Positions 2-48,644 of a stretch of DNA of 64,000 nt are shown here, in pieces. The notes beneath the pieces were generated by a model. That model searched no databases. It was not told the DNA's origin and was given only the letters and a program-made list of their open reading frames with translations. Position 1 is the first letter of the stretch, and every line of letters starts with the position of its first letter. The stretch lies in assembly GCF_001422485.1 (NCBI RefSeq), contig NZ_LMNF01000001.1, forward strand, positions 689,900 to 753,899, written 5' to 3'. A program made the translations under genes and the position numbers. The DNA comes from Agreia sp. Leaf283. Lineage in GTDB: Bacteria > Actinomycetota > Actinomycetes > Actinomycetales > Microbacteriaceae.

Positions 2-724
2 ACCGACTTCCTGAACAACCCGTCCTGGGCGCTGCCCGAGGTCTGGGAGTGGGGCAACTACGTCTCGGCCTGGGTCACCGGAAACCTGGCGACGACCATC
101 ACGAACAGCATCATCGCGACCGTCCCGTCGCTCGCTCTCATCGTGATCCTCGGTGTCGCCGGCGGGTTCGCTCTCGAGGTCATGGTGTTCAAGGGCCGCG
201 GCGGCATCCTGCTGCTGATTCTCGCGGGCATCATGATCCCCGTGCAGATGATCCTGCTGCCGCTGTTCACGATCTTCTTCAACCTGAACATCACCGGCTC
301 GCTGCTGCCCCTGATCATCATCTACACCGGACACGGCCTGCCATTGACGATCTTCATGATGGCCACCTACTTCCGGGCGATCCCCCGCGAGGTGTTCGAG
401 GCGGCCACGATCGACGGCTCCACGATGCTGCGTTCGTTCTGGTACATCGGCTTCCCGATGGTGCGCAACGCCGTGATCACCGTGGGCCTCGTGCAGTTCT
501 TCCTCATCTGGAACGACCTGCTCATCGCCATCACCTTCGCGAGCAACCGCTCGCTCAACACCATCCAGGCCGGACTGCTCAACTTCTCGGGCGAGTACGG
601 TGCCACCGACTACGGACCGCTCTTCGCCGCGATCTGCATCACGACCGGCGGAATCCTGATCCTCTACCTGTTCCTCAACCAGCAGATCATGAAGGGCCTC
701 ACGGCCGGTTCGGTTAAGGGCTAG
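2..724 (+). CDS. Carbohydrate ABC transporter permease, MalG type (5' truncated)
   Basis: This is the C-terminal 240 residues of an inner-membrane permease that carries a sugar into the cell as part of an ABC importer. The reading frame is already open at the window edge, so the start is outside. Several hydrophobic segments are visible. The EAA loop that docks on the ATPase reads REVFEAATIDGSTMLRSFW, and the C-terminus NQQIMKGLTAGSVKG is the usual end of MalG-like permeases. The other importer parts should lie to the left. It is followed by a strong hairpin and then a rhamnosidase gene, so the substrate may be a rhamnose-containing oligosaccharide; that link is inference from context. Confidence 0.93.
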   Translation, partial: TDFLNNPSWALPEVWEWGNYVSAWVTGNLATTITNSIIATVPSLALIVILGVAGGFALEVMVFKGRGGILLLILAGIMIPVQMILLPLFTIFFNLNITGSLLPLIIIYTGHGLPLTIFMMATYFRAIPREVFEAATIDGSTMLRSFWYIGFPMVRNAVITVGLVQFFLIWNDLLIAITFASNRSLNTIQAGLLNFSGEYGATDYGPLFAAICITTGGILILYLFLNQQIMKGLTAGSVKG

Positions 725-835: not shown

Positions 836-3442
836 ATGTCGGCCACCCCATCAGCCCCCTCCATCGAGCATCACCGCGTTCCCTTCGGCATCGGAGACCG
901 CCGGCCCCGCCTGTCGTGGAAGACCACCGCCGCTCCCGGATGGGCGCAGGCCGGCTATGAGCTCGAGGTCACCCGCAACGGCATCCCCGCCACGCGCCGG
1001 GTCGACTCGACGGAGTCCGTGCTCGTTCCCTGGCCCGGTCCCGACCTCGTCTCCCGCGAGCGGGCCACGGTGCGGGTGCGCCTCACCGGCGAGGACGGCA
1101 TTCAGGGCGAGTGGAGCGAGCCATCCACTCTCGAGACGGGGCTGCTCGACGCGTCCGACTGGGTGGCCAAGCCGGTCGGTGGCGCCTGGCGCGAGGAATT
1201 CGAATCGGATGATCGTCGCCCGGCGCTCGTGCGCCGAGCGTTCGCGCTGACCGGGCCCGTCGCATCCGCCCGCCTGTACGCCTCGGCGCACGGCCTCTAC
1301 GAGGTCGAGATCAACGGCCGCCGAGTGGGCGACGACGCCATGTCTCCCGGCTGGACCAGCTACGCGCAGCGCCTGCGCTACTACAGCTACGACGTGACGG
1401 AACACCTGGTCGACGGCGAGAATGCGATCGGCTCCTGGCTCGGCGACGGCTGGTACCGCGGCCGCCTGGGGTGGCGCGGCGGATGGCGCAACCTCTTCGG
1501 CAGCGACCTGTCGCTGATCGCGCAGCTCGAAGTCACCTACACCGATGGCCGCGTCGAGACGATCGCCACCGACAAAACATGGAACGCCGCGTTCGGTCCG
1601 ATCGTGCGCACCGGCAACTACGACGGTGAGGACTACGACGCGCGCGACGAGCAGGCCGGCTGGTCGAGCCCCGGGTTCGACGAGAGCGCGTGGACCCCCG
1701 TCGCCGTGCGCTATCGCGACCCCGCCACGCTCACCGCCCCGGATGGGCCGCCCGTGCGCTGCACACAGGAGGTTCTGCCGGTCGAGGTCATCGACACCCC
1801 GTCGGGCGGAACCGTGCTCGACTTCGGCCAGAACCTGGTGGGGCGCGTGCGTATCCGGGTGTCGGGCGAGGCCGGCCAGACGGTGACACTGCGCACCGCC
1901 GAGGTGATGCAGCACGGCGAGATCTACACTCGCCCCCTGCGCGAGGCGCGCTCGACCGACAACTACACGCTCGCGGGCCGCAAGGTCGAGGAGTGGGAGC
2001 CACGGTTCACGATGCACGGCTTCCGTTTCGTCGACGTGGCCGGATGGCCCGGAGACGTTCGCGAGGCCGTCGCCCGGGGCGCGATCGTGGCCCGGGTGTA
2101 CCACTCCGACATGGAGCGCACCGGCTGGTTCGACAGCTCGGACGAACTCGTGAACCGCCTGCACGAGAACGTGGTGTGGAGCATGCGCGGCAACTTCGTC
2201 GACATCCCGACCGACTGCCCTCAGCGTGACGAGCGCGTGGGCTGGACCGGCGACATCCAGGTCTTCGCGCCGACGGCATCGTTCCTCTACGACGTGTCGG
2301 GCTTCCTCGGAAGCTGGCTGAAGGACGTGGCCGTCGAGCAGCTTCCCGACGGAACCGTGCCCTGGTACGTGCCCGCGATTCCCGCGCACCAGATGTGGAC
2401 ACCGGTCCGCCCGGGTGCCGTGTGGGGCGACGTCGCCGTGCTCACACCGTGGGTGCTCTACGAGCGCTACGGCGACGTGGGCGTGCTCGCCGAGCAGTAC
2501 GACAGCGCCAAGGGGTGGGTCGACCTGATGGACCGCCTCTCGGGCGACGACCACCTGTGGAACGAGGGCTTCCAGCTGGGCGACTGGCTCGACCCCGCCG
2601 CTCCCCCGCAGGACCCGGCCGACGCTACGACCGACAAGTACCTGGTCGCGACCGCGTACTTCGCCTGGAGCGCGCGGCACCTCAGTCTCACCGCCGAGGT
2701 TCTGGGCAAGACCGACGATGCCGAGCACTACGGCCTCCTCGCCGACAAGGTTCGCGACGCCTTCGCCGCCGAGTACCTGCTGCCCGACGGCCGTCTCACC
2801 TCCGACGCGCAGACCGCCTACTCGCTCGCCATCACCTTCGACCTGATCCCGGATGACGCCCGCCGGGCGGCTGCCGGGCGGCGGCTCGCGGAACTCGTGG
2901 AGGCTGCCGGCAACCGCATCGCCACCGGCTTCGCGGGCACGCCGCTGGTGTCGGATGCTTTGACGATGGCCGACGCGGTCGACACCGCCTACGACCTGCT
3001 GCTCGAGAAGGAGTGCCCGTCATGGCTCTACGCCGTGACGCAGGGAGCGACCACCATCTGGGAACGCTGGGACAGCCAGCTGCCCGACGGCCGAGTGAAC
3101 CCGGGCACGATGACGTCGTTCAACCACTACGCGCTGGGCGCGGTCGCCGACTGGATGCACCGGGTCGTCGCGGGATTGGCCCCGGCCGAGCCGGGCTACC
3201 GCACCATCGCGTTCCGACCGCAGCCGGGCGGCGGTCTCACCCACGCCTCGGCGACGCACGAGTCGCCGTACGGCACCGTCTCGATCGCGTGGAGGTTCGA
3301 GGGCGACGATCTCGTGGTCGAGACGCAGGTTCCCGTGGGCGCCTCGGCCGTGCTCGAGCTCGAGGGCCACGAGCCGATCGCGCTGCAGCACGGCAGTCAC
3401 GTCAATCGCGTTCCCGCGGGAGTCGCACTGGCGCGTCGCTAG
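836..3442 (+). CDS. Alpha-L-rhamnosidase, GH78
   Basis: This 868-residue enzyme should hydrolyse terminal alpha-L-rhamnose from glycosides or pectic oligosaccharides. N-terminal beta-sandwich regions (about 1-380, including SARLYASAHGLYEVEINGRRVGD and the LDFGQNLVGRV motif) precede an (alpha/alpha)6 barrel. The GH78 acidic cluster DCPQRDERVGWTGD lies near residue 460, followed by GDWLDP and a C-terminal beta domain. No signal peptide is seen, so it is probably cytoplasmic and acts on imported oligosaccharides. The ATG is preceded by AGAGGT at suitable spacing. The LacI gene follows 42 bases after the stop in the same orientation. The length matches bacterial GH78 enzymes. The exact aglycone cannot be read from sequence. 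Confidence 0.95.
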   Translation: MSATPSAPSIEHHRVPFGIGDRRPRLSWKTTAAPGWAQAGYELEVTRNGIPATRRVDSTESVLVPWPGPDLVSRERATVRVRLTGEDGIQGEWSEPSTLETGLLDASDWVAKPVGGAWREEFESDDRRPALVRRAFALTGPVASARLYASAHGLYEVEINGRRVGDDAMSPGWTSYAQRLRYYSYDVTEHLVDGENAIGSWLGDGWYRGRLGWRGGWRNLFGSDLSLIAQLEVTYTDGRVETIATDKTWNAAFGPIVRTGNYDGEDYDARDEQAGWSSPGFDESAWTPVAVRYRDPATLTAPDGPPVRCTQEVLPVEVIDTPSGGTVLDFGQNLVGRVRIRVSGEAGQTVTLRTAEVMQHGEIYTRPLREARSTDNYTLAGRKVEEWEPRFTMHGFRFVDVAGWPGDVREAVARGAIVARVYHSDMERTGWFDSSDELVNRLHENVVWSMRGNFVDIPTDCPQRDERVGWTGDIQVFAPTASFLYDVSGFLGSWLKDVAVEQLPDGTVPWYVPAIPAHQMWTPVRPGAVWGDVAVLTPWVLYERYGDVGVLAEQYDSAKGWVDLMDRLSGDDHLWNEGFQLGDWLDPAAPPQDPADATTDKYLVATAYFAWSARHLSLTAEVLGKTDDAEHYGLLADKVRDAFAAEYLLPDGRLTSDAQTAYSLAITFDLIPDDARRAAAGRRLAELVEAAGNRIATGFAGTPLVSDALTMADAVDTAYDLLLEKECPSWLYAVTQGATTIWERWDSQLPDGRVNPGTMTSFNHYALGAVADWMHRVVAGLAPAEPGYRTIAFRPQPGGGLTHASATHESPYGTVSIAWRFEGDDLVVETQVPVGASAVLELEGHEPIALQHGSHVNRVPAGVALARR

Positions 3443-7468: not shown

Positions 7469-8727
7469 GAAACGAACCCGAGCTGAACTGGGCGGGAACG
7501 CTCGAATACCAGGCCGCAGACATCATCGATGCGACCACGATCGATGAGGTGTCCTCCCTCGTCGCCGGGGCCGAACGGATCCGCGCACTCGGCACCCGGC
7601 ACTCGTTCAGCGACATCGCCGACACCGACGCCCTGCTCGTGACGGTCACCGAGATCGAGCCCGACTTCGTTCTCGACGACGAGGCCCGCACGGTCACCGT
7701 CGGCGCGGGCACCCGCTACGGAATTCTGGCCCGCTACCTCGAAGACAACGGCTGGGCCCTGCACAACATGGGCTCGCTGCCGCACATCTCGATCGCGGGT
7801 GCCATCGCCACGGGAACGCATGGCTCGGGCAACGGCAACGGCGTGCTCTCGACCGCGGTCTCGGCGCTCGAATTCGTGACGGCCGACGGCGAGCTGCGCA
7901 CCGTCCGTCGCGGAGAGCCCGGCTTCGACGGCCTTGTCGTGGGCCTCGGGGCGTTCGGCGTGGTCGTACGCATCACCCTCGACATCCAGCCGTCGTTCCA
8001 GGTTCGGCAGGATGTCTTCCGCGGCCTGCCCTGGGACGTGCTGCTCGACGACGTCGAGGGAGTGACCTCGCTGGGCTACAGCGTGAGCGTGTTCACCGAC
8101 TGGGTCGAAGACACCATCGCCAACTTCTGGGTGAAGACCCGGCTCGACTCCGGTGTCGACGTTCCCGACGAGTGGAACGGCGCGAAGCGCGACATCGTCT
8201 CGGCCGGTTCGCTGTGGGAGACCTCGGACGACAACCTCAACGAGCAGGGCGGCAAGCCCGGTCCGTGGCTCGAGCGGCTACCGCACTTCCGACTCGACCG
8301 CATCCCGTCGAACGGCGACGAGATCCAGACGGAGTACTTCGTTCCACGTTCCCAGGGCGGCGACGCCCTGCGCGCCGTGCGGGCGCTCGGCGAGAAGATC
8401 GCTCCCCACCTGATCATCACCGAGCTGCGCACCGCCGCGGCCGACGACCTCTGGTTGAGCATGGCCTACCAGCGCGACTCGCTCATCATCCACTTCACAT
8501 GGAAGAACGAGCCCGACGCCGTTCTGGCCCTGCTGCCGCAGATCGAAGAGGCGCTCGCGCCGTTCGACGCGCGACCCCACTGGGGCAAGCTCAACACGGT
8601 GGATGCCGCGACCCTGTCACGGCTGTATCCGCGGCTTCCCGAGTTCCGGGCTCTGGCCGCTGAGTGGGATCCGACGGGCGCGTTCCGCAACGCCGCGCTC
8701 GACAGGCTGATCTTCACGGAGGAGTAG
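7465..8727 (+). CDS. FAD-binding alditol/xylitol oxidase-like protein
   Basis: This 420-residue flavoprotein is of the VAO/GLDH type. ALGTRHSF places His46 exactly where Streptomyces AldO carries covalently bound FAD, and GAIATGTHGSGNGNG is the second FAD-binding stretch. The C-terminus has the substrate-domain features of alditol oxidases (PHWGKLNTVDAATLSRLYPRLPEF). Such enzymes oxidise a terminal hydroxyl of polyols or aldonolactones with O2, giving H2O2. The GTG start overlaps the stop of the GH78 gene, so it is co-expressed with a rhamnosidase. Its substrate may be a sugar alcohol or lactone released by that pathway. The family is well supported; the substrate is not. Confidence 0.85.
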   Translation: MRNEPELNWAGTLEYQAADIIDATTIDEVSSLVAGAERIRALGTRHSFSDIADTDALLVTVTEIEPDFVLDDEARTVTVGAGTRYGILARYLEDNGWALHNMGSLPHISIAGAIATGTHGSGNGNGVLSTAVSALEFVTADGELRTVRRGEPGFDGLVVGLGAFGVVVRITLDIQPSFQVRQDVFRGLPWDVLLDDVEGVTSLGYSVSVFTDWVEDTIANFWVKTRLDSGVDVPDEWNGAKRDIVSAGSLWETSDDNLNEQGGKPGPWLERLPHFRLDRIPSNGDEIQTEYFVPRSQGGDALRAVRALGEKIAPHLIITELRTAAADDLWLSMAYQRDSLIIHFTWKNEPDAVLALLPQIEEALAPFDARPHWGKLNTVDAATLSRLYPRLPEFRALAAEWDPTGAFRNAALDRLIFTEE

Positions 8728-8798: not shown

Positions 8799-8857
8799 AT
8801 TCAGGAGGAGAGCCCTGCCGCGTGGATAGTGGCGGCGGACGGCCGCTCCTCCTGAAT
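8799..8857 (+). repeat. 59-bp hairpin repeat, copy A
   Basis: Arms ATTCAGGAGGAG (8799-8810) and CTCCTCCTGAAT (8846-8857) pair perfectly. The loop region holds GTGGATAGTG at positions 24-33 of the element. The inner stem is partly degraded compared with copies B (13093-13151) and C (62730-62788). It sits between the convergent oxidase and SDR genes, 3 bases beyond the SDR stop codon. Confidence 0.85.
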
Positions 8858-8860
8858 TCG

Positions 8861-9724
8861 TCACGCGAGCGCCGCGAAGCCCTCTCTCCAGAGGTGCTCC
8901 GGCTCGAAGCCGAGCCTTTCGCGCGCCTTGTCGATCGACATCAGCGTCTCGAACTCGCCCAGCGACTTCGTCACGGGGGTTCCGGGGAACGTGATCTCGG
9001 CGAGCTCGGCCGACGGAATGGACAGTCCGGTGTCGGACGCCGCGATGTTGTACACCTCGAAGCCGGGCTCGGCTGCGGCGAGCGCGAGGGCGACGGCGGC
9101 TGCGCCGTCCCGCGCGTCGATGTAGCTGAACAGCAGATCGCGCCGATACGCGGGATCGCCGGCGCGCTCGAAGCTGCCGTACTCCTCGGCGGTGATCACG
9201 TTCGTGAAGCGCAGCGCCGTGATCGAGAGCTCGTCGTTCCAGCGCACGAACTGCCCGGCCATCGCCTCCTCGACGACCTTGCCGAGGCCGTAGGTGTTGT
9301 TCGCCGCACTCACATTCTCGTCGAGGGGCAGGGATGCCGGTGCCTCGTCGAAGGGGAAGCCCATGGCGGTGATGCTCGACGCGTAGACGATGGTCGTGAT
9401 GCCCGCGCGGAGAGCGGCGAAGAACACGTTGAACGACACCGTGACGTTGTTGTGGAACGTCGTCGCGTCGGGCACCAGCCCGTTCACGGGGATGGCGGCG
9501 AGGTGCACGAGCGCGTCGATTCCGCTGTGTCGCGCGGTGACCCCGAGCATGCTGTCGAGCGTCTGCCCGTAGTCGGTGAAGTCCACGGTCGTGAACCGCA
9601 GTCGAGGGTCGGCCGCCTGCGAGCCCGCGAGGTCGAAGCCGATCACCTCGTGGCCGTCGGTCAGGAGTCGGTCGACGGTGGCCCGTCCGAGTTTGCCGGA
9701 GCTTCCGGTGACGGCGATGCGCAT
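8861..9724 (-). CDS. NAD(P)-dependent epimerase/dehydratase (extended SDR)
   Basis: This 287-residue extended short-chain dehydrogenase has an N-terminal nucleotide-binding motif MRIAVTGSSGKLGRATVDRL, with acidic FDLAGS after beta-2 suggesting NAD. DALVHLAAIPV and the active-site YGLGK (Tyr-x-x-x-Lys) follow. The size fits uronate dehydrogenase-like and GalE-like enzymes. It is the last gene of the leftward operon starting at 12928, 62 bases after a cupin gene. An oxidation or epimerisation of a sugar or sugar acid is likely; the substrate is unknown. Confidence 0.85.
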   Translation of the reverse strand: MRIAVTGSSGKLGRATVDRLLTDGHEVIGFDLAGSQAADPRLRFTTVDFTDYGQTLDSMLGVTARHSGIDALVHLAAIPVNGLVPDATTFHNNVTVSFNVFFAALRAGITTIVYASSITAMGFPFDEAPASLPLDENVSAANNTYGLGKVVEEAMAGQFVRWNDELSITALRFTNVITAEEYGSFERAGDPAYRRDLLFSYIDARDGAAAVALALAAAEPGFEVYNIAASDTGLSIPSAELAEITFPGTPVTKSLGEFETLMSIDKARERLGFEPEHLWREGFAALA

Positions 9725-9749
9725 GGGGGTGTCCTTTTCTTAGGTTCTT

Positions 9750-9773
9750 CCCTTCGACAGGCTCAGGGAACGG
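9750..9773. repeat. Short intergenic repeat (CCCTTCGACAGGCTCAGGGA type)
   Basis: A single copy of the 24-base repeat that recurs throughout the window. It lies between the SDR gene and the upstream cupin gene of the same operon. Confidence 0.8.
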
Positions 9774-9785
9774 GAGGCGGTCGGG

Positions 9786-10178
9786 TCAGCGGGCGGGGAA
9801 ATCTGCGGGAACCGGCGCGGCCGGCACGTCGTGCCCCGCCGCATCCGATTCGCTCTCGTGCAGGTGGCCGACCAGACCGCCGGCCGGCAGCCCGCTCTCG
9901 AGAAAGAAGCCGCGCAGGGTCTCGTAGACCTCGACGATGTCGTGGCTGTCGCCGGCCTGGGTGAGCACGATGTCACCCGCCTGCACATAGTGCTCGGAGC
10001 CCTCGAGCAGGATCTTGCCCTTGCCCTCCCAGATCATCCAGACCTCGTCGTCGTCGTGGTGGTGCCGCTCGAACCGGCCGCCCTCCGTGGCGACGACGAA
10101 GCGCCCGATCGAGGCGATGCCCGTCCAGTCGGGTTTCGTATCGGGGTTGAGCCAGGAGCCCGGCGCGATGATCGGCAT
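9786..10178 (-). CDS. Cupin-domain protein
   Basis: A 130-residue single-domain cupin starting MPIIAPGSWLN. Metal-ligand motif 1 is present as GGRFERHHHDDDEVWMIWEGKG, and motif 2 is weaker around GDIVLTQAGDSHDIVEV. The ATG shares one base with the stop of the upstream cupin gene (TGATG), so the two are translationally coupled. Small cupins of this kind are often sugar isomerases, epimerases or dioxygenases. Next to a PEP-hydrolase-like and a Tm-1-like gene it probably takes part in a small-molecule catabolic pathway; the reaction is unknown. Confidence 0.8.
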   Translation of the reverse strand: MPIIAPGSWLNPDTKPDWTGIASIGRFVVATEGGRFERHHHDDDEVWMIWEGKGKILLEGSEHYVQAGDIVLTQAGDSHDIVEVYETLRGFFLESGLPAGGLVGHLHESESDAAGHDVPAAPVPADFPAR

Positions 10179-10606
10179 CAGTTCGACTGGCTCCAGAGCG
10201 GTGCCGTGCCGGGGTCGAGGATGCGCGCGTCGGGCAGACCGTCGAGGCCGGTCTCGGCGCCTCCGGGCGTGTACGTGACCGAGAGACGCAGGGGCCGCCA
10301 GGTGGTGTTGTAGGTGGAGTGCTGCGTGGCCTTCGGGATGTACACCGCATCGCCCTCGCGGATCGGGAACGCGGGGCCGTCGCCGACCGTCTGCTCGCCC
10401 TCGCCCGAGATGACGTAGATGACCTCGTCCTCGCCCGGGTGGTCGTGCGGCGCGTGGCCCTGGCCGGGGTAGATGATGACCTCTCCGACGGTGAGCTGGG
10501 CTCCCTCGTCGAGGTGCGGGGTGACCAGCCACTTGATGGTTCCCCAGCCGAAGGTGCGGGTGGGAACCTCGTCGGGGCGACGGCCGGACTGTGCTGATGT
10601 GGTCAT
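10178..10606 (-). CDS. Cupin-domain protein
   Basis: A 142-residue cupin with clear metal-binding motifs: GQGHAPHDHPGEDEVIYVISGEG (motif 1, H-x-H-x-E) and IPKATQHSTYNTT (motif 2 histidine). It is paired with the next cupin, which overlaps its stop codon. The repeated pair suggests a heteromer or two successive steps. The upstream PEP-hydrolase-like gene ends 81 bases before its start, with a palindromic repeat in the gap. Function is not identifiable from sequence alone. Confidence 0.83.
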   Translation of the reverse strand: MTTSAQSGRRPDEVPTRTFGWGTIKWLVTPHLDEGAQLTVGEVIIYPGQGHAPHDHPGEDEVIYVISGEGEQTVGDGPAFPIREGDAVYIPKATQHSTYNTTWRPLRLSVTYTPGGAETGLDGLPDARILDPGTAPLWSQSN

Positions 10607-10638
10607 GCGTGAAACTCCTTCTTCTGCGGGGGCGGATG

Positions 10639-10687
10639 CCCTTCGACAGGCTCAGGGAACGGTCCGTTCCCTGAGCCTGTCGAAGGG
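10639..10687. repeat. Perfect 49-bp palindrome from two opposed short repeats
   Basis: Two copies of the 24-base repeat face each other around a single T, giving 24-base perfect arms. It abuts the stop codon (10688-10690) of the PEP-hydrolase-like gene and could act as a transcript 3'-end stabiliser or terminator inside the operon. Confidence 0.8.
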
Positions 10688-11509
10688 CTAGAACGTGATG
10701 TTCTTGAACTCTTCGATCTGGGCCTTGATGGCGCGCTCGGTGGGCAGTCGCTCGGCACTGGATGCGCCGAAGAACCCGGCGACACCGGTCGTATTGGCGA
10801 GTACGTAGGCCGCATCCTCGGGTTCGGCGATCGGGCCGCCATGGCAGAGCACGATCACGTCGGGGTTGATCTTCACGGCCGCGTCGCGCATCTCCTGCAC
10901 GCGGCCGACGCAGTCCTCGAGCGTCAGGGCCGTGTGGGCGCCGATCGTGCCGGCGGTGGTCAATCCCATGTGCGGAACCAGCACATCCGCCCCCGCCTCG
11001 GTCATCGCGATCGTCGATTCGACGTCGAACACGTAGGGCGAGGTGAGCAGCTCGCGCTCGGCGGCGAGGCGGATCATGTCGACCTCGAGGTCGTAGCTCA
11101 TGCCCGTCTCCTCGAGGTTCTGCCGGAAGACGCCGTCGATGAGTCCCACCGTGGGAAAGTTCTGCACCCCGGCGAAGCCCATGCGCTTGAGGTCGTCGAG
11201 GAAGTTCTCCATGATGCGGAACGGGTCGGTGCCGTTCACGCCCGCGAGCACCGGGGTGTCGCGCACGATCGGCAGCACCTCGCGGCTCATCTCGACGACC
11301 ACCTGGTTGGCGTCGCCGTAAGCCAGCAGCCCCGACAGCGAGCCGCGGCCGGCCATGCGGTAGCGGCCCGAGTTGTAGATGATGATCAGGTCGACGCCGC
11401 CGGCCTCCGCCGACTTGGCCGAAATTCCAGTGCCCGCTCCGGCGCCGATGATCGGCTTGCCCTGGGCGATCGTGGCGCGCAGGCGCTCGAGTGCGGTGGC
11501 TCTGTCCAT
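10688..11509 (-). CDS. Phosphoenolpyruvate-hydrolase-like TIM-barrel protein
   Basis: This 273-residue protein matches the TIM-barrel family annotated as PEP hydrolase-like (PF09370). Characteristic stretches are [57 protein letters not shown] and [14 protein letters not shown]. It starts at the ATG 24 bases after the UPF0261 gene. In tomato Tm-1 the UPF0261 domain and this barrel are fused in one protein; here they are adjacent genes, which supports a shared function. The reaction has not been established for this pair. It probably acts on a carboxylated sugar-derived intermediate, which is inference. Confidence 0.85.
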
Positions 11510-11533
11510 GTCGGTGTCCTTCGGTTCAGTCGT

Positions 11534-12928
11534 TCAGTTCTTCGTGATGAGCGCGTGCAGTTCGTCTGCGGCCTGTCGACCGAACAGCGGATCGTTGATG
11601 TTCGCGTCGAGTTCGAGCACGGTCACGGCGGATCCCTCCACGGCGGCGGTCACGTTCTCGAACAGGGCCTCGTCGGCCGCCACGTCGCGGAACGGCTGGC
11701 CCGCGGCATCCAGAGCCGAGACGCCCCCGCGGGGGATCATCAGGATCGTCGGCGACTCGGCCGCGGCGAGCTTGGCGCCGAGCGATTTGCCGAGCTCGGC
11801 GTTCTCGTCGACGGTCGTGCGCATCAGCGTGATCGTGGGATTGTGCACGAAGAAGTGCCGATCGGCGAACGGCGCCGGCACGGTCGCCTCGGGTCCGAAG
11901 TTGACCATGTCGAGGGCGCCCAGGCTGACCACCTGCGGTGTTCCGGATGCTCCGGCCGCGGTCACCCGGTCGGGTCCGGCCGTGAGGACACCCCCGACCA
12001 GCTCGTCGGCGAGTTCGGTGGTCGTGAGGTCGAGCACCCCGGCCAGCATGTTCGAGCGGGCGAGCGCCTCGAGCGCCCTGCCCCCGGAGCCTGTGGCGTG
12101 GAAGACGAGCACCTCGTAACCGAGCTCGTCGAGTCGCTCGCGCGCGGCATCCACGGCCGGGGTCGTGACCCCGAACATCGACGCGCCGATGAGCGGTCGC
12201 TCCCCGCCGCCTCCGTTCGCTGAGCCTGTCGAAGCGCCGCCGTCGTTCGCTGAGCCTGTCGAAGCGCCGCTTGTCGAAGCGCCCCCGCGCCCCGCGTACG
12301 CCGCAGCCATCCCCGCTGCCGCCGCGGCCGCGTTGCCGAGCACGCTGCGCGAGATCTGGTTGATGCCGGCGATGTCGACGACGCTGTACATCATGGTCAC
12401 GTCGCTGGCACCGACGTAGGGAGAAACGTCTCCGGAGGCCATGGTCGACACGATGAGCTTCGGCAGACCGATGGGAAGATCGCGCACGGCCCGGGCGGCG
12501 ATCGCCGAGCCGCCACTGCCGCCGAGGGCGAGCACCGCGTGCACTCCAGAGTCGGAGACGAGCTGCGCGAGCACGGCGGCGGCCCCCTCTCCCATTCGGG
12601 TCACAGCCGCACCCCGGTCGTCGCCGTCACGCAACGCGTCGATCGTGGTGCCGGCCGCTTCGGCCACGGCGGTCTGCGGGAACGCGACGGCGCCCGTGTA
12701 GCCGTGGGGGTCGCGGATGCCCGCATCCACCGCCACGACCGTGACGCCGAGGGCGGCGAGCTGATCGGACATCCATTGGTACTCGGCGCCCTTGGTGTCG
12801 AGCGTGCCCACGAGGGCCACGGTCGGTCGTGACTCTGTGGACTGGGCCTCTGTGGACTGGGCCTCTGCGGACTGGGCCTCGGCTGCTTCGGTCGCCTCGG
12901 TCGCCTGGGCTGGCGAAGTCTCGCTCAC
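11534..12928 (-). CDS. Tm-1-like ATP-binding (UPF0261) protein
   Basis: This protein of about 464 residues has the N-terminal fold seen in tomato Tm-1: VALVGTLDTKGAEYQWMSDQLAALGVTVVAVDAG near residue 30 and VLALGGSGGSAIAARAVRDLPIGLPKLIVSTMASGDVSPYVG in the middle. I chose the GTG at 12928 (VSETSPAQ) after a purine-rich stretch; longer open reading would run through hairpin B and is unlikely. Two oddities are visible: three 15-bp tandem repeats code for the N-terminal (STEAQ)n linker, and the common intergenic repeat is inserted twice in frame at 12214-12282, coding for an inter-domain linker rich in Gly, Ala and Ser. It is first in the leftward operon and has a LacI-type palindrome upstream. 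Confidence 0.85.
   Translation of the reverse strand: MSETSPAQATEATEAAEAQSAEAQSTEAQSTESRPTVALVGTLDTKGAEYQWMSDQLAALGVTVVAVDAGIRDPHGYTGAVAFPQTAVAEAAGTTIDALRDGDDRGAAVTRMGEGAAAVLAQLVSDSGVHAVLALGGSGGSAIAARAVRDLPIGLPKLIVSTMASGDVSPYVGASDVTMMYSVVDIAGINQISRSVLGNAAAAAAGMAAAYAGRGGASTSGASTGSANDGGASTGSANGGGGERPLIGASMFGVTTPAVDAARERLDELGYEVLVFHATGSGGRALEALARSNMLAGVLDLTTTELADELVGGVLTAGPDRVTAAGASGTPQVVSLGALDMVNFGPEATVPAPFADRHFFVHNPTITLMRTTVDENAELGKSLGAKLAAAESPTILMIPRGGVSALDAAGQPFRDVAADEALFENVTAAVEGSAVTVLELDANINDPLFGRQAADELHALITKN
12214..12282. repeat. Intergenic-type repeats inside the UPF0261 coding region
   Basis: CGTTCGCTGAGCCTGTCGAA occurs twice with a 30-base period (from 12214 and 12244) and is followed by a partial third copy (TTGTCGAAGCGC at 12271). 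All are in frame with the gene and code for a Gly/Ala/Ser/Thr linker. Confidence 0.8.
12836..12880. repeat. Three 15-bp tandem repeats in the UPF0261 N-terminus
   Basis: TGTGGACTGGGCCTC is repeated at 12836, 12851 and, with one change, 12866. It codes for repeated Glu-Ala-Gln-Ser-Thr in a low-complexity leader ahead of the folded domain, so copy number can vary without a frameshift. Confidence 0.8.
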
Positions 12929-13092: not shown

Positions 13093-13151
13093 ATTCAGGA
13101 GGAGAGCGCTGCCGAGTGGATAGTGGCGGCGGCAACGCTCTCCTCCTGAAT
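13093..13151 (+). repeat. 59-bp hairpin repeat, copy B
   Basis: The arms pair perfectly for 16 bases (ATTCAGGAGGAGAGCG with its complement). One C/A mismatch is followed by 5 further pairs and a loop holding GTGGATAGTG. It lies 24 bases beyond the stop of the leftward LacI gene ending at 13176, between that gene and the UPF0261 operon. Confidence 0.88.
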
Positions 13152-13175: not shown

Positions 13176-14186
13176 TCAGCCGCCGGTACTCGCCCGCACC
13201 ACGAGCTCGGGCTGGAACACCACCTGCTGCGGAGGCGCCGACGGGTCCTCCGCCTCGGCCAGCAGGATCTCGACCGCGGTCCTGCCGATCAGCGCGCTCG
13301 GCTGCCGGATGCTCGACAGCGGCACCACGGCGGCGCTCGCGAAGTCGATGTCGTCGTAGCCGATGAGCGCGATCTGCCCGGGAACCGCCACGTCGGCACC
13401 CTGCATCGCGAACGCCTGCAGCAGTCCCATCGAGACGAGGTCGTTCGCCGCGAAGATCGCGTCAGGCCGATCGCCGGACGCCCGTCCGACGATGTCGGCT
13501 CCCGCGGCGCGCCCGGCCAGAACGCTCAGCGCGTCGATCTCGATCACCTCGAGCGAGGCATCCGGATGCCCCGCGACGGCCGCGCGGGCGCCCTCGAGTC
13601 GGTCGGCGACCTGGCGGATGCCCATGGGGCCGCCCACGAAGGCCAGCCGACGCCGACCAAGAGAGAGGAGGTGCTCGACCGCGAGCCGTCCGCCGGCGAG
13701 GTCGTCGACCGACACCGAGCTGAACGCTCCGTCGGGGCTCGACCGGTCGACGAGCACGGCCGGAATGCCGCGCTTCTTCAGACGGGAGAGGCGCTCGCTG
13801 ATGTCGGCGTAGGCCGAGATCACGACCCCGTAGACCCGTTGCTGCTCGAACAGGTCGAGGTAGGTGGCCTCGCGCGCCGGATCCTCGTCGCTGTTGCCGA
13901 GGGTCACGGTGAGCCCGGACTGCGAGGCCTCGTCTTCTGCTCCGCGGGCCAGGTCGGTGAAGAACGGGTTGCGCACGTCGAGAACGACCATGCCGATGGT
14001 GCGGCTACGACCGTTGCGCAGTTGCCGGGCGGCGTCGTTGCGGATGAAGCCGAGCTCGTCGATGGCGCGCTGCACGCGCTCCGCCGACGCGGGCGAGACC
14101 TTCTCGGGATGATTCAGCACGTTCGACACCGTGCCGACGGAGACGCCGGCGCGCTGGGCGACGTCTCTCACGCTCGACGCTGACAT
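13176..14186 (-). CDS. LacI-family transcriptional regulator
   Basis: A repressor of 336 residues. The N-terminal helix-turn-helix is SVRDVAQRAGVSVGTVSNVLNHPEKV, followed by the ligand domain (IGMVVLDVRNPFFTDLARGAEDEA, IALIGYDDIDFASAAVVPLSSIRQP). The ATG at 14186 follows AGGGTGAG; a GTG at 14195 would add three residues. It is transcribed towards the UPF0261/PEP-hydrolase/cupin operon and ends about 250 bases before it, so that operon is its most likely target. The effector is unknown. It resembles the other LacI proteins here in the ligand domain, which suggests local duplication. Confidence 0.93.
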   Translation of the reverse strand: MSASSVRDVAQRAGVSVGTVSNVLNHPEKVSPASAERVQRAIDELGFIRNDAARQLRNGRSRTIGMVVLDVRNPFFTDLARGAEDEASQSGLTVTLGNSDEDPAREATYLDLFEQQRVYGVVISAYADISERLSRLKKRGIPAVLVDRSSPDGAFSSVSVDDLAGGRLAVEHLLSLGRRRLAFVGGPMGIRQVADRLEGARAAVAGHPDASLEVIEIDALSVLAGRAAGADIVGRASGDRPDAIFAANDLVSMGLLQAFAMQGADVAVPGQIALIGYDDIDFASAAVVPLSSIRQPSALIGRTAVEILLAEAEDPSAPPQQVVFQPELVVRASTGG

Positions 14187-14267
14187 GGTTCTCACCCTAG
14201 GGCCACGCCCGCCGATCGCCCGGCCACGACGCTGGTCAGCGCCGAGGAACTCATCACCGGGCCCTCG

Positions 14268-30767: not shown

Positions 30768-31136
30768 ATGACGACGCAGCGCGTGTGCTTTCAGCTTCAG
30801 GTGAAGCCCGACCGCATCGAGGCGTACCGCGAGGCCCACGCGGCCGTGTGGCCCGACATGCTCGAGGCCCTGGATGAGACGGGGTGGCGCAATTACTCGA
30901 TCTTCCTGCGACCCGACGGTCTCGTGATCGGCTACTTCGAGACCGACGACCTTCAGGCCTCGCTCGACGGGATGGCCCTCACTGCGGTGAATGCACGCTG
31001 GCAGGCGGCGATGGCCGACAACTTTGTCGACCTCGCCGATGCCTCTGGTAAGCAACGCCCTGCGGACCAGGCGTTCGACTACATCCCCGAGGTGTTCAAC
31101 CTCGCCGATCAGCTGGCGGCCGCACAGCGATTGTGA
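30768..31136 (+). CDS. rhaM: L-rhamnose mutarotase
   Basis: A 122-residue protein of the RhaM/RhaU dimeric alpha+beta barrel family. It contains RVCFQLQVKPDRIEAYREAHAAVWPDMLEALDETGWRNYSIFL with the conserved His in the REAH segment, a C-terminal NARWQAAMADNF and FDYIPEVFNLADQL. It interconverts the alpha and beta anomers of L-rhamnose to supply the isomerase. The ATG follows GAGAGGAACC, 13 bases after the isomerase-like gene. Short, complete and typical in length. Confidence 0.94.
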   Translation: MTTQRVCFQLQVKPDRIEAYREAHAAVWPDMLEALDETGWRNYSIFLRPDGLVIGYFETDDLQASLDGMALTAVNARWQAAMADNFVDLADASGKQRPADQAFDYIPEVFNLADQLAAAQRL

Positions 31137-31242: not shown

Positions 31243-32406
31243 ATGGTGCAGTTCAACGACATCGCGTCGCAGCTCGAGGGGCAGTCCATCGAACTGCCCT
31301 CGTGGGCGTTCGGCAACTCGGGCACGCGATTCCGCGTCTTCGGAACCCCGGGCACCGCCCGCAACCCCGAAGAGAAGATCGCCGACGCCGCCCAGGTGAA
31401 CAAGTACACCGGGCTCTCCCCGAAGGTGGCCATCCACATCCCGTGGGACAAGGTCGACGACTACGCAGCCCTCGGCGCCTACGCCAACGACCTCGGCGTC
31501 GAGCTCGGAACGGTGAACTCGAACACGTTCCAAGACGAGGACTACAAGTTCGGCTCCCTCACCTCGTCGAACCCGGCCGTGCGCCAGAAGGCCATCGATC
31601 ACCACTTCGAGTGCATCGACATCATGGATGCGACGGGCTCGAAAGACCTCAAGATCTGGCTCGCAGACGGCACGAACTACCCAGGCCAAGACGACATCCG
31701 CGGTCGCCAGGACCGGCTCGCCGAGTCGCTGCAGACGATCTACGACCGCATCGGCGCCGAGCAGCGCCTGGTGCTCGAGTACAAGTTCTTCGAGCCGGCG
31801 TTCTATCACACCGACGTTCCCGACTGGGGAACCTCGTACGCCCAGGTCGCCGCGCTCGGCGAGCGCGCCCTGGTCTGCCTCGACACCGGCCACCACGCGC
31901 CGGGCACCAACATCGAATTCATCGTCGCCCAGCTGCTGCGCCTCGGAAAGCTCGGCTCGTTCGACTTCAACTCGCGCTTCTACGCCGACGACGACCTCAT
32001 CGTGGGCGCGGCCGACCCGTTCCAGCTGTTCCGCATCCTCTACGAGGTCATTCGCGGCGGCGGCTACGGACCCGATTCGGTCGTGGCTTTTATGCTCGAC
32101 CAGTGCCACAACATCGAGGCCAAGATCGCCGGCCAGATGCGCTCGGTGCTGAACGTGCAGGAGATGACGGCGCGCGCGCTGCTCGTCGACCGCGCCGCGC
32201 TTACGGCAGCGCAGGAATCCAACGATGTGCTCGGTGCCAATGCCGTGCTCATGGACGCCTTCTACACGGATGTCCGGGGCCCGCTCGCCGAGTGGCGCGA
32301 GTCTCGCGGTCTTCCGGCCGACCCGATCGCCGCGTTTACGGCATCCGGTTACCAGGAGAAGATCTCGGCCGAGCGCGTCGGCGCCCAGGCGAGCTGGGGC
32401 GCGTAG
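31243..32406 (+). CDS. rhaI: L-rhamnose isomerase, RhaI type
   Basis: A 387-residue TIM-barrel aldose-ketose isomerase converting L-rhamnose to L-rhamnulose. Landmark stretches are GNSGTRFRVFGTPGTARNPEEKIADAAQVNKYTG, VLEYKFFEPAFYHTDVPDWG (metal-ligand Glu), LVCLDTGHHAPGTNIEFIVAQLL (Asp and catalytic His) and GSFDFNSRFYADDDL (further metal-ligand Asp). The ATG follows CGGAGAATT. It has its own operator-bearing leader inside the operon. This is the RhaI family found in actinobacteria and Pseudomonas stutzeri, not E. coli RhaA. Confidence 0.95.
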   Translation: MVQFNDIASQLEGQSIELPSWAFGNSGTRFRVFGTPGTARNPEEKIADAAQVNKYTGLSPKVAIHIPWDKVDDYAALGAYANDLGVELGTVNSNTFQDEDYKFGSLTSSNPAVRQKAIDHHFECIDIMDATGSKDLKIWLADGTNYPGQDDIRGRQDRLAESLQTIYDRIGAEQRLVLEYKFFEPAFYHTDVPDWGTSYAQVAALGERALVCLDTGHHAPGTNIEFIVAQLLRLGKLGSFDFNSRFYADDDLIVGAADPFQLFRILYEVIRGGGYGPDSVVAFMLDQCHNIEAKIAGQMRSVLNVQEMTARALLVDRAALTAAQESNDVLGANAVLMDAFYTDVRGPLAEWRESRGLPADPIAAFTASGYQEKISAERVGAQASWGA

Positions 32407-46595: not shown

Positions 46596-48644
46596 ATGAC
46601 TTCCCCCGAGACCCCCGTCGCCTCAGCCGAGCTGATCGCCCGCTCCAACCGACTCGGACAGGACCCGAAGAACACGAACTACGCGGGCGGAAACACCTCC
46701 GCGAAAGGCACCGCCACCGACCCGGTCACCGGCGAACAGGTCGAGCTCATGTGGGTGAAGGGCTCCGGCGGAGACCTCGGCACGCTCACCGAGTCCGGCC
46801 TCGCCGTTCTGCGCGTCGACCGTCTGCGCTCGCTCGTGAACGTCTACCCCGGTGTCGACCGCGAAGACGAGATGGTCGCCGCTTTCGACTACACCCTGTT
46901 CGGCAAGGGCGGCGCGGCCCCCTCGATCGACACGGCCATGCACGGTCTCGTCGACGCAGCGCACGTCGACCACCTGCACCCCGACTCCGGCATCGCCATC
47001 GCGACCGCCGCCGACGGCGAGGAACTCACCGAGAAGATCTTCGGCGACAAGGTCGTCTGGGTTCCGTGGCGCCGCCCCGGCTTCCAGCTCGGCCTCGACA
47101 TCGCCGAGATCAAGCGCCAGAATCCGGATGCGATCGGCTGCATCCTGGGCGGCCACGGCATCACCGCGTGGGGCGACACGAGCGACGAGACCGAGGCGAA
47201 CAGCCTCTGGATCATCGACACCGCCGCCGCCTACATCGCCGAGCACGGAAAGGCGGAGCCCTTCGGCCCTGCCCGCGACGGCTTCGGTGCGCTCGAGAAG
47301 GCGGAGCGCCGAGCGAAGGCCGCCGCCCTCGGCGCCACGATCCGCGGCCTCGCCTCGACCGACGCCCCCAAGGTCGGCAGCTTCACCGACGCGGACGTCG
47401 TGCTCGACTTCCTCGCCTCCAGCGAGGCACCGCGCCTCGCAGAGCTCGGCACGAGCTGCCCCGACCACTTTCTGCGCACCAAGGTCAAGCCGCTGATCCT
47501 AGACCTGCCGGCCGACGCATCCATCGAGGACTCGATCGCGCGCCTCGTCGAGCTTCACGCCGAGTACCGGGCCGACTACCAGGCCTACTACGACCGGCAC
47601 GCCACGGCCGACTCCCCCGCGATCCGCGGCGCCGACCCGGCGATCGTTCTCGTTCCCGGTGTGGGCATGTTCAGCTACGGCGCGAACAAGCAGACAGCCC
47701 GCGTTGCCGGCGAGTTCTACATCAACGCGATCAACGTGATGCGCGGCGCCGAGTCGCTCTCGACCTACGCCCCCATCGAAGAGAGCGAGAAGTTCGCGAT
47801 CGAGTACTGGGCCCTCGAGGAGGCCAAACTCCAGCGCCTGCCCAAGCCGAAGTCGCACGCGACGCGCGTCGCGCTCGTCACGGGTGCGGCATCCGGAATC
47901 GGCAAGGCCATCGCGACCCGCCTCGCGAAAGACGGCGCGTGCGTCGTGATCGCAGATCTCGACCTCGAGAAGGCTCAGGATGCCGCCGCGCAGCTCGGAT
48001 CGACCGACGTCGCCATCGGCGTGCAGGCCAACGTGACCAGCGCAGACGAAATCCAGGCGGCGATCGACGCGGCAGTTCTCGCCTTTGGCGGCCTCGACCT
48101 CGTGGTCAACAACGCCGGACTCTCGCTGTCGAAGCCGCTGCTCGACACCACCGAGGGCGACTGGGACCTGCAGCACAACGTCATGGCCAAAGGCTCGTTC
48201 CTCGTGTCGAAGGCGGCCGCGAAGGTACTCATCGAACAGAAGATGGGCGGCGACATCATTTACATCTCGTCGAAGAACTCGGTGTTCGCCGGCCCGAACA
48301 ACATCGCGTACTCGGCGACGAAGGCCGACCAGGCGCACCAGGTGCGGCTGCTGGCCGTGGAGCTCGGCGAGCACGGAGTGAAGGTCAACGGCATCAACCC
48401 CGACGGCGTCGTGCGTGGATCGGGCATCTTCTCGGGTGGATGGGGTGCCAAGCGCGCCGCCGTCTACGGCGTGCCCGAGGAGGAGCTGGGCGCGTACTAC
48501 GCGAAGCGCACCATCCTGGGCCGCGAGGTGCTCCCGGAGAACGTGGCCAACGCGGTCGCCGTGCTCACGGGCGAAGACCTCACACACACCACGGGCCTGC
48601 ACATTCCTGTCGACGCGGGCGTCGCGGCTGCCTTCCTGCGATGA
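46596..48644 (+). CDS. rhaEW: Bifunctional rhamnulose-1-phosphate aldolase / short-chain dehydrogenase
   Basis: A 682-residue fusion. Residues 1 to about 400 are a class II aldolase with NYAGGNTSAKGTA, MWVKGSGGDLGTL and the metal-binding His cluster in AMHGLVDAAHVDHLHPDSGIAIA. Residues of about 426-682 are a short-chain dehydrogenase with VALVTGAASGIGKA, LVVNNAGLS and the active-site YSATK. The first half splits rhamnulose-1-P into DHAP and L-lactaldehyde; the second oxidises lactaldehyde to L-lactate with NAD. TTGGAGCG precedes the ATG. This fusion is typical of actinobacteria, Bacillus and alphaproteobacteria. rhaB follows after repeats. Confidence 0.94.
   Translation: MTSPETPVASAELIARSNRLGQDPKNTNYAGGNTSAKGTATDPVTGEQVELMWVKGSGGDLGTLTESGLAVLRVDRLRSLVNVYPGVDREDEMVAAFDYTLFGKGGAAPSIDTAMHGLVDAAHVDHLHPDSGIAIATAADGEELTEKIFGDKVVWVPWRRPGFQLGLDIAEIKRQNPDAIGCILGGHGITAWGDTSDETEANSLWIIDTAAAYIAEHGKAEPFGPARDGFGALEKAERRAKAAALGATIRGLASTDAPKVGSFTDADVVLDFLASSEAPRLAELGTSCPDHFLRTKVKPLILDLPADASIEDSIARLVELHAEYRADYQAYYDRHATADSPAIRGADPAIVLVPGVGMFSYGANKQTARVAGEFYINAINVMRGAESLSTYAPIEESEKFAIEYWALEEAKLQRLPKPKSHATRVALVTGAASGIGKAIATRLAKDGACVVIADLDLEKAQDAAAQLGSTDVAIGVQANVTSADEIQAAIDAAVLAFGGLDLVVNNAGLSLSKPLLDTTEGDWDLQHNVMAKGSFLVSKAAAKVLIEQKMGGDIIYISSKNSVFAGPNNIAYSATKADQAHQVRLLAVELGEHGVKVNGINPDGVVRGSGIFSGGWGAKRAAVYGVPEEELGAYYAKRTILGREVLPENVANAVAVLTGEDLTHTTGLHIPVDAGVAAAFLR

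Follow-up and report, generated by a model that had tools for sequence, protein, structure and literature searches.

Five collinear genes on the minus strand of a 64,000-nucleotide stretch of the Agreia sp. Leaf283 genome, here called the window, raise the question of which common task could unite a UPF0261 protein, a PF09370 TIM barrel, two cupins and an extended SDR (8861-12928). A sequence-only reading had delimited five open reading frames, confirmed here by ORF coordinates and Pfam matches (Table 1), and the conserved, operator-bearing operon of largely unassigned enzymes within a sugar-catabolic (rhamnose) region that it proposed is supported. The operon is probably an undescribed catabolic route, and the sugar acid guessed at earlier is a possible substrate. 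The reading developed below is held tentatively, with somewhat less than even confidence: the five genes would carry out the inner catabolic steps within a LacI-type regulon that serves an L-rhamnosyl glycoside taken up by the cell, with Rha-apiose of RG-II origin as the likeliest candidate.

Table 1. Features of the window, with the matches that define them
Feature	Coordinates	Strand	Remarks
ABC importer permease	2..724	+	BPD_transp_1 4e-14
GH78 alpha-L-rhamnosidase-type enzyme	836..3442	+	PF17389 6e-128, over cut-off; SDR-linked GH78 clade
Extended SDR	8861..9724	-	287 aa; PF01370 3.4e-21
Cupin B	9786..10178	-	130 aa; Cupin_2 1.1e-8
Cupin A	10178..10606	-	142 aa; Cupin_2 1.3e-16
PF09370 'PEP hydrolase-like' TIM barrel	10688..11509	-	273 aa; PF09370 4.3e-131
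UPF0261 / Tm-1-like ATP-binding domain protein	11534..12928	-	464 aa; PF06792 4e-62, PF23189 6e-87
Operator TTGACACGTTTCAA	13038..13051		palindromic, 14 bases; precedes UPF0261
LacI1	13176..14195	-	upstream neighbour of UPF0261; orthologues in operator-negative genomes
RhaM-type L-rhamnose mutarotase	30768..31136	+	clusters with L019:5433-5795 (PF05336 rhaM 6e-26)
RhaI L-rhamnose isomerase	31243..32406	+	TIGR02635 632 bits, above cut-off
RhaD bifunctional rhamnulose-1-phosphate aldolase/dehydrogenase	46596..48644	+	TIGR02632 998 bits, above cut-off

Gene order, operator and LacI proteins

The five-gene order is kept in 12 of 299 genomes in a scan of the family, each checked gene by gene, and is also carried by L023, L024 and L025, so that the claim of a conserved neighbourhood holds in 15 genomes from two actinobacterial families. 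Gene calls in the relatives come from a codon-score script by which genes may be missed or mis-started, and cluster labels are the family name of one or a few scanned members. The stop of cupin A and the start of cupin B overlap by 1 nt in nine of the 12 loci measured, the window included. Because the order recurs in 15 genomes and the 14-base operator upstream of UPF0261 is identical in all 15, the arrangement exceeds chance. A chance run of genes with no common task, under the adjacent LacI only, would fit the separate occurrence of UPF0261-PF09370-cupin A without cupin B-SDR (L028, L132) and of cupin B-SDR without the other three genes (L127, L131), but is extremely improbable in view of the identical operator and shared order in two families. 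The loci L028 and L132, which have no GH78, gave no clue to the substrate.

In a scan of 35 genomes the exact operator was found in all 12 five-gene genomes and in three of the seven SDR-only genomes, being absent from the other four. It did not occur in the 11 other PF09370 genomes or in the five same-genus genomes without PF09370, and the reversed pattern had no occurrence in the 35 genomes. The five genes are not the complete set that had been proposed but probably one arm of a larger regulon, since this site, exact or nearly so, is also located before genes for a GH78 rhamnosidase, a second SDR with a CMD gene (SDR2-CMD), an SGL lactonase and an ABC sugar importer. Several such sites lie just left of the window in its own genome. 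Among the other exact sites read, four are located between GH78 and cupin B or the SDR and ten before SDR2-CMD, eight of the latter with a divergent sugar SBP; the SGL sites have one mismatch and come from two genomes only (L225, L226).

The adjacent LacI1 gene is probably not the cognate regulator, because its orthologues (59-92% identity, for example 92% in G001) also occur in genomes without the five-gene operon and without the operator. It is therefore not the dedicated LacI of the sequence-only reading: LacI1 does not co-distribute with the operator, and another LacI clade does. That LacI1 acts only on other genes, an outcome which that reading had set against itself, is probably true as judged by distribution only, yet the operon keeps its conserved operator. 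The tree comprises 55 fetched LacI loci and nine from the window, L018 and L024, a subset of all LacI matches, and contains a clade of 14 rows (SH-aLRT 99) made up of 13 of the 15 operator-positive family genomes and L024. None of its rows comes from the 14 operator-negative genomes in the tree, out of 20 (four SDR-only, 11 other PF09370 and five same-genus genomes, a sixth, G007, being left out); G003, G006, G157 and G284 (no match at 1e-70) as well as G002 and G180 are absent from the tree. The own-genome member (G000:C1:683558-684547) is found 5.4 kb beyond the left edge of the window, and a LacI copy of G004 outside the tree is 97% identical to it, while in G261 the operator is present without the clade. 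From this co-distribution, the clade is the predicted regulator acting through TTGACACGTTTCAA.

The Tm-1-like pair, the cupins and the SDR

The UPF0261 protein carries both PF06792 and PF23189 over cut-off and matches the N-terminal region of Tm-1 in sequence (5e-79) and, by its AlphaFold model (pLDDT 84.9), in fold (3wrx_B, TM 0.78/0.85). The model also matches Saro_1862 of Novosphingobium aromaticivorans (9mpy; TM 0.54/0.60, 35% identity in the structural match), which likewise belongs to the UPF0261 family but was solved with an aromatic ligand, acetovanillone, and may be the kinase MarK cited in PMC13101465. As a relative of the Tm-1-like ATP-binding family, the protein is probably the kinase-type partner of the pair. 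Its neighbour exceeds the PF09370 cut-off of 33.8 with 436 bits, matches the solved relative 2p10 at 1e-112 and has 52 invariant columns in an alignment of 32 rows; an NCBIfam search gave no match for this protein or for cupin B. It is probably a C-C lyase, predicted to act on an activated acid. The label "PEP hydrolase" is a family name only.

Here the two proteins are encoded by separate open reading frames and not by a Tm-1-like fusion. Bacteria, archaea and plants all have the pair, and COG5564 is presumably the PF09370 TIM barrel. For fungi, a phylogenetic-profile study links the two COGs of the pair (PMC8963296). Within the open-licence full-text literature, no paper was found that assigns these two proteins a role in the metabolism of sugars. 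In Tm-1, the TBST domain is taken here to be PF09370. Being split does not set the module of the window apart, as had been thought: in 71 of 80 loci UPF0261 and PF09370 are encoded by separate genes next to each other, the usual bacterial state, and PMC5028733 calls the C-terminal part of Tm-1 the TIM-barrel (TBST) domain and puts the fusion in the plant line. The likeness to tomato Tm-1 and plant Tm-1-like proteins (PMC5028733; 3wrw-3wry) concerns the sequence and fold of the N-terminal region, whereas the window has two genes, which show no antiviral sign and are located among sugar genes together with cupins and an SDR.

Six plasmid loci give a mixed picture, with the pair flanked in Rhizobium by genes for a sugar ABC importer, a cupin and a Gfo/Idh/MocA protein, PF09370-cupin-UPF0261 in a row in Halobaculum, and PF09370 near aromatic genes, with no UPF0261 annotated beside it, in Variovorax. 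A UPF0261 paralogue in the own genome (G000:C1:774546-775070) is accompanied by a xylose-isomerase-like protein, an FAD-linked oxidase and a creatininase-family gene, a cluster that differs from the five-gene cluster. At gathering scores, Rfam matched nothing in the window.

The cupins have invariant residues at H51, H54, H56, E61 and H96 (cupin A, 12 rows) and at H39, H41, E45 and H79 (cupin B, 11 rows). Cupin A travels with UPF0261/PF09370, since 29 of 80 loci have a cupin A-like gene no more than 4 kb from PF09370, and cupin B travels with the extended SDR, which it adjoins in L127 and L131. The profile of cupin A matches quercetin 2,3-dioxygenase (2e-8), which together with the ligand of 9mpy, the CMD-family gene of the regulon and the SRPBCC genes and aromatic ring-hydroxylating dioxygenase near PF09370 on the Variovorax plasmid would suit an aromatic aglycone, released from a flavonoid or phenol rhamnoside, with UPF0261 phosphorylating the phenol and the cupins and CMD protein acting on the ring or product. 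Such a substrate is improbable, as the Sll1358 protein (6e-11) and oxalate decarboxylases (4e-8) match cupin A about equally or better, the importer SBP belongs to the SBP_bac_1 sugar-type family, 9mpy is only 35% identical, and no ring-cleavage gene was seen among the scanned neighbours of the five-gene and SDR-only loci.

Close homologues of the extended SDR (at least 66% identity) are present in 19 of 299 family genomes. It is predicted to be an NAD-dependent sugar 1-dehydrogenase; its structure model is weak (pLDDT 66) and fold matches say only "extended SDR". A second SDR family (50-55% identity) was discarded as a clue to the substrate; of its four loci fetched, three (L134, L135, L137) have it close to genes for ribosomal proteins L10/L12. 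The length and fold class of the extended SDR would also fit a uronate dehydrogenase acting, ahead of a lactonase, on the uronic acid of imported Rha-GlcA or Rha-GalA from arabinogalactan protein or RG-I; a mutated uronate dehydrogenase (6mfh, 6e-7) is among its profile matches, and several relatives have LacZ-like GH2 and AKR genes within the importer run. A uronate is nevertheless unlikely: 6mfh is far behind the best profile match, 4id9 (5e-15), no aldarate dehydratase was seen in the scanned subset of neighbour proteins, and the apiose-type genes near the SDR in SDR-only loci, described below, would be left unexplained.

Rhamnosidase, importer and SDR-only relatives

The GH78 protein of the window, with a PF17389 six-hairpin domain at 2114-3169 (G000:C1:692013-693068), reaches 763 bits against NF041573, below the cut-off of 1720, and has no apparent signal peptide in its N-terminus as read by eye; a relative in its clade (L023:6060-8657) carries five rhamnosidase domains. 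Of the 12 five-gene genomes, 11 have a GH78 gene at most 10 kb from PF09370, versus none of the 11 other PF09370 genomes; such a gene adjoins the SDR in all seven SDR-only genomes. The 17 GH78 proteins tied to the SDR or to a five-gene locus form one clade (97/95) in which five-gene and SDR-only members are intermixed. This tree took the GH78s of ten other five-gene genomes (without G004, G028, G122 and G228), the two of the window, those of six of the seven SDR-only genomes (that of L131, which is split, being left out) and 21 from elsewhere in these genomes out of a longer list; W4724 and several of the 21 have long branches. The permease at the window edge continues an SBP-permease-permease run that begins outside the window, to its left (L225). 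The regulon is likely to serve a rhamnosyl glycoside, and RhaM, RhaI and RhaD in the window are the expected destination of the rhamnose released from it.

The constant linkage to GH78 and the lactonase gene in the same stretch could also be read as a second, oxidative rhamnose route with the SDR as L-rhamnose 1-dehydrogenase. This has a low probability given RhaI and RhaD in the window and, in L130, L230 and L232, a RhaI-cluster gene close to the regulon; no rhamnonate dehydratase-type gene was seen among the scanned neighbours, and the DAK, RpiB and TPI neighbours of the SDR suit a C4/C5 product better.

These neighbours belong to the SDR-only genomes, all seven of which show, no further than 16 kb from the SDR, a match to the apiosidase family (PF13204) or to ApnL, by weak profile matches (4e-13 to 2e-17 for PF13204); the ApnL cut-off (NF049900) was exceeded in none of the 35 genomes. 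RpiB, TPI, PGDH_C and xylose-isomerase-like neighbours occur in three of the seven, two of them with a DAK kinase. Pathways for D-apiose and D-apionate, with ApnL, ApnO, OiaC and others, were reportedly described by Carter and colleagues in 2018, and PMC11747546 names the enzymes for one strain. The relatives resemble these pathways in that their SDR and GH78 pair lies beside ApnL-like, PGDH_C, xylose-isomerase-like, DAK, TPI and RpiB genes, whereas in the 12 five-gene genomes the 20 kb around PF09370 on its contig, some contigs being short, contain no apiosidase-family or ApnL-like match, and an extended SDR serves as the oxidoreductase. At the level of whole genomes the five genes do not replace the ApnL route, because 11 of the 12 genomes carry an ApnL-like match elsewhere.

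A putative route for a rhamnosyl glycoside

In the preferred reading, the ABC importer would take up an L-rhamnosyl glycoside, and the cytoplasmic GH78 would split off L-rhamnose for the nearby RhaM, RhaI and RhaD. The remaining sugar would most likely be D-apiose, Rha-alpha1,3-Api being a fragment of pectin RG-II, although apiose itself is a tentative choice that could well prove wrong. The extended SDR would oxidise this sugar at C1 to a lactone and the SGL-family lactonase of the regulon would open it, after which UPF0261 as kinase, PF09370 as C-C lyase of the acid once activated, and cupin A would bring the acid to central metabolism. These three would stand in for the PGDH_C-type dehydrogenase, xylose-isomerase-like protein, DAK kinase and TPI-type and RpiB-type isomerases that would occupy this point in some genomes without them. 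Rha-Api is an RG-II product cut by an alpha-rhamnosidase according to PMC7939467, and the proposed step resembles that of the Bacteroides thetaiotaomicron RG-II system (BT1012 apiosidase, BT1001 alpha-rhamnosidase); the enzyme here looks cytoplasmic, behind an ABC importer, and is likened to BT1001 by role and not by GH78 homology.

Several observations count against the route. Apiosidase-family and ApnL-like matches are weak and missing close to the five genes, G261 has the operator without the LacI clade, four SDR-only genomes lack the exact operator, and SGL is tied in by one-mismatch sites in two genomes. In its simple version, moreover, the route offers no obvious function for SDR2 and the CMD gene, and the kinase role of UPF0261 rests on family relationship, with an aromatic ligand in 9mpy. 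A more specific version is a long shot: the UPF0261 kinase would phosphorylate D-apionate or a close branched acid, and PF09370 would cleave C2-C3 by a retro-aldol reaction to dihydroxyacetone phosphate and glycolate. Plant Tm-1 fusions and fungal, archaeal and bacterial pairs would then run the same two steps on related substrates, and PF09370-AraC/sigma-54 fusions of Bacillota would sense the same compound.

If this were true, a kinase and retro-aldol lyase pair would represent a novel mode of cleaving branched sugar acids. The operator, the LacI clade that tracks it and the constant GH78 partner lead to a testable substrate class, which would bear on the task of Tm-1 before its antiviral role.

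Composition and conservation of the operon

Five open reading frames follow one another on the minus strand of the window, with Pfam matches to the N- and C-terminal domains of UPF0261, to PF09370, to two cupins (A and B) and to an extended SDR. The five-gene set claimed in the sequence-only reading is present with its expected domains, and the first two proteins belong to the UPF0261 and PF09370 families. In nine of 12 measured loci, that of the window among them, cupins A and B share a single base; in the other three the genes abut (two) or are 14 bases apart (one).

A PF09370 match occurs in 23 of 299 family genomes (G handles; L handles are fetched loci) and is at least 83% identical in 13, while the extended SDR is found at 66% identity or more in 19. 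In 12 of these 13 genomes the SDR lies downstream of PF09370 in the same orientation, and UPF0261, cupin A and cupin B keep their order, between or beside these two, in all 12. Further five-gene loci outside the family scan come from two species of Virgisporangium, which belongs to another family, and a Rhodoglobus MAG. With overlaps between the two sets removed (the same contigs, going by length or coordinates, being G004 and L018, G057 and L026, G059 and L022, G126 and L027, G140 and L019, G160 and L021, G192 and L020), the conserved gene order sought by the neighbourhood check is found in 15 genomes, 12 of them among the 299. Within the genus, the PF09370 gene is present in two of eight genomes; the operon is therefore patchy.

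The operon consists of two modules. Flexivirga (L028) has UPF0261-PF09370-cupin A by itself, as does G284, the thirteenth genome with a closely similar PF09370 gene, and cupin B-SDR occurs without the other three genes in G065 and G232 (L127, L131). Five further genomes carry the SDR without any of those three.

Several repeats lie in and around the operon. It is flanked by a 55-nt near-palindrome (TCAGGAGGAG...GTGGATAGTG...CTCCTCCTGA) whose outer 10 pairs are invariant among copies and which looks like a two-way terminator; for 12 of the 15 copies read, a predicted stop codon is no more than 75 nt away, and no Rfam match was found. All 16 exact-pattern copies of the genome lie at C1:582-1332 kb, with none on the other three contigs (parS was located as a comparison for this regional clustering), and the repeat is present in six of eight genus genomes. 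A perfect 25-base palindrome of another repeat, CCCTTCGACAGGCTCAGGGAACGG, lies between PF09370 and cupin A and looks like a recent insertion, because it is absent at that point in the closest relative, L018 (about window 10622-10686 against L018 10823/10824). The CCCTTCGACAGGCTCAGGGAACGG family has two further, in-frame copies inside the UPF0261 gene, which code for ASTGSAN in the linker joining the two UPF0261 domains; L018 has similar copies in a shorter linker.

Features of the operon, its surroundings and related loci (window positions unless a genome or locus handle is given)
Feature	Position	Strand	Remark
Permease	2-724		continues the importer run of L225
First GH78	836-3442		
Second GH78	4724-7468		
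D-arabinono-1,4-lactone-oxidase-like gene	7465-8727		4-nt overlap with second GH78
Five-gene operon	12928 to 8861	-	
Extended SDR	8861-9724	-	NAD-dependent epimerase/dehydratase-type Pfam match
CCCTTCGACAGGCTCAGGGAACGG palindrome	10638-10688		
In-frame CCCTTCGACAGGCTCAGGGAACGG family copies	12213-12277		
LacI1	13176-14195		adjoins operon
55-nt near-palindrome	8799-8857, 13093-13151, 62730-62788		
GTVSHYLN-clade LacI	G000:C1:683558-684547		own genome
Second UPF0261 gene	G000:C1:774546-775070		own genome (L098)
PF09370-AraC helix-turn-helix fusion	L062:7364-8653		
PF09370-sigma-54 activator fusion	L073:6662-8545		
MGH1-like glycoside hydrolase	L232:5907-7175		G065; downstream of exact operator

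The UPF0261-PF09370 pair and its protein families

The AlphaFold model of the UPF0261 protein (pLDDT 84.9) matches the N-terminal region of the tomato protein Tm-1 (3wrx, TM 0.78/0.85) better than 9mpy, a Novosphingobium UPF0261 protein solved with acetovanillone (TM 0.54/0.60), and 2p10 is the single close solved relative of the PF09370 protein. The window genes do not have the fused architecture of Tm-1, a fusion which PMC5028733 describes as an event of the plant line. The idea of a split Tm-1 module holds in that the genes are separate and adjacent, but such a pair is ordinary, because 71 of 80 loci from the PF09370 query (the best 80 of 114) have a UPF0261 match whose end lies no more than 300 bases upstream of PF09370. 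In nine of these best 80 no such match was in reach, that of L082 sitting at the locus edge, and 29 of the 80 have a cupin A-like gene no farther than 4 kb from PF09370. As the domain is joined in Bacillota to an AraC-type helix-turn-helix or a sigma-54 activator domain (one representative of each scanned), PF09370 may bind the compound of the pathway; the clusters holding these representatives are present in 39 of the best 80 of 114 loci. Such fusions lie near UPF0261-PF09370 in many Bacillota loci.

In both cupins the residues that are invariant in the alignment (H51, H54, H56, E61 and H96 in cupin A; H39, H41, E45 and H79 in cupin B) would fit metal sites. The second UPF0261 gene of the genome has a xylose-isomerase-like protein, an FAD-linked oxidase and a creatininase-family gene as neighbours.

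A search by name of open-licence full texts found no paper tying the UPF0261/PF09370 pair to a sugar pathway. In fungi, COG5441 (named UPF0261 in that source) and COG5564 rank as a top linked pair (PMC8963296). Wood-decay fungi have a UPF0261 gene among the genes whose differential expression is specific to brown rot (PMC6867892), and in Brucella a UPF0261 gene is listed as a candidate difference associated with virulence (PMC2364660). A paper on HPE catabolism (PMC13101465) cites MarK as the single-component kinase starting acetovanillone catabolism in a Novosphingobium strain, and the HpeHI kinase from the same field has a different fold (PMC12167813).

Operator sites and LacI genes

CG-centred palindromes were sought in the 330 bases before UPF0261 in the window, L018-L027, L133 and L028. 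One identical palindrome, TTGACACGTTTCAA, is common to all 12 five-gene loci and was not found in that stretch of L028. A search of 35 whole genomes gave 29 exact copies of the 14-mer, spread over 15 genomes. Each of the 12 five-gene genomes has one copy before UPF0261, three of the seven SDR-only genomes (those with the SDR and without UPF0261, PF09370 and cupin A) together have four that separate GH78 from cupin B or SDR, and 13 copies lie elsewhere. The 14-mer is absent from the 11 other PF09370 genomes and from five same-genus genomes without the PF09370 gene, and the reversed pattern has no occurrence in the 35. Eleven of the 13 elsewhere sites were read (all except those of G057 and G126): ten precede the pair of a classical SDR gene and a CMD-family gene (the divergent gene being a sugar SBP at eight and an AKR at two), and one, in G065, precedes an MGH1-like glycoside hydrolase. 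Relatives of the latter gene lie beside the SDR in L024 (Rhodoglobus) and beside ApnL in L131.

When about 1.92 million bases of locus sequence were scanned (the set without L001-L017 and L099-L124), sites with at most one mismatch turned up in only 15 sequences, each from a five-gene or extended-SDR locus. An exact site lies between GH78 and SBP in L024, and several loci have one-mismatch sites ahead of a GH78 or SBP gene. The own genome has the exact operator once, and three one-mismatch sites in the 17 kb left of the window (L225): one between a LacI and an SGL lactonase gene, two between SDR2 and SBP. The gene order there is LacI, SGL, CMD, SDR2, SBP and permease, continuing into the permease and first GH78 of the window, and the close relative G004 (L226) has the same one-mismatch arrangement. 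From their positions, the operator sites would control the adjoining genes, which form a predicted regulon.

The sequence-only reading took the adjacent LacI1 for the dedicated regulator. This is probably wrong, since LacI1 orthologues also occur in operator-less genomes (91-92% in G001, G002 and G005, for example), whereas another LacI clade tracks the operator. In a tree of 64 LacI proteins this clade (SH-aLRT 99) has 14 members, whose helix sequence is GTVSHYLN or closely similar. Thirteen operator-positive family genomes contribute one member each and Rhodoglobus L024 another; the 14 operator-negative genomes contained in the tree contribute none. The G004 copy, outside the tree, shares 97% identity with the own-genome member and 69% with that of L024; G261 has the operator and no member of the clade. 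The own-genome member lies to the left of the window, with about 5.4 kb between its end and the window start (689900).

Rhamnosides, apiose and the predicted pathway

Eleven of 12 five-gene genomes have a GH78 domain no more than 10 kb from PF09370 (in G004 the distance is 20 kb), against none of the 11 other PF09370 genomes, and all seven SDR-only genomes have one beside the SDR. In a tree of 39 GH78 proteins, 16 SDR-linked proteins and the first GH78 of the window form one clade (97/95) in which five-gene and SDR-only members are mixed; of 21 GH78s from elsewhere, 20 fall outside it and one (L152) is its sister. No signal peptide was seen in the first GH78, its N-terminus being judged by eye. 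The second, divergent GH78 falls outside the clade on a long branch; with its lactone-oxidase-like neighbour it also occurs in G004 (L226). Among L-rhamnose genes, the window holds RhaI and RhaD above cut-offs and a RhaM-type gene assigned by cluster.

The second sugar could be apiose. Within 5 kb of the SDR, an apiosidase-family (PF13204) match is found in G075, G047 and G065 (about 15 kb away in G261) and an ApnL-like match (NF049900, below cut-off) in G184, G064 and G232, all SDR-only genomes. TPI-, RpiB-, PGDH_C- and xylose-isomerase-like genes in L127, L128 and L129, and a DAK-type kinase in L127 and L129 (families determined on L129 and extended to the other loci through cluster membership), give a neighbour set that appears to resemble the route from apionate to erythrose-4-phosphate reportedly described by Carter et al. 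in 2018. Rha-alpha1,3-Api is a constituent of RG-II and is cut by an alpha-rhamnosidase of B. thetaiotaomicron (PMC7939467). Against this link, no PF13204 or ApnL-like match lies closer to the operon than 20 kb on its contig in any of the 12 five-gene genomes, and 11 of them have an ApnL-like match elsewhere in the genome.

In the proposed pathway, all enzyme roles being predicted, a rhamnosyl disaccharide would be imported and cleaved by GH78 inside the cell, the extended SDR would oxidise the second sugar and SGL would open the lactone. UPF0261 would then provide an activation step followed by C-C cleavage by PF09370, and the cupins may act as metal-dependent isomerases or decarboxylases. 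The system as a whole reads as a LacI-type sugar regulon with an unusual inner pathway.
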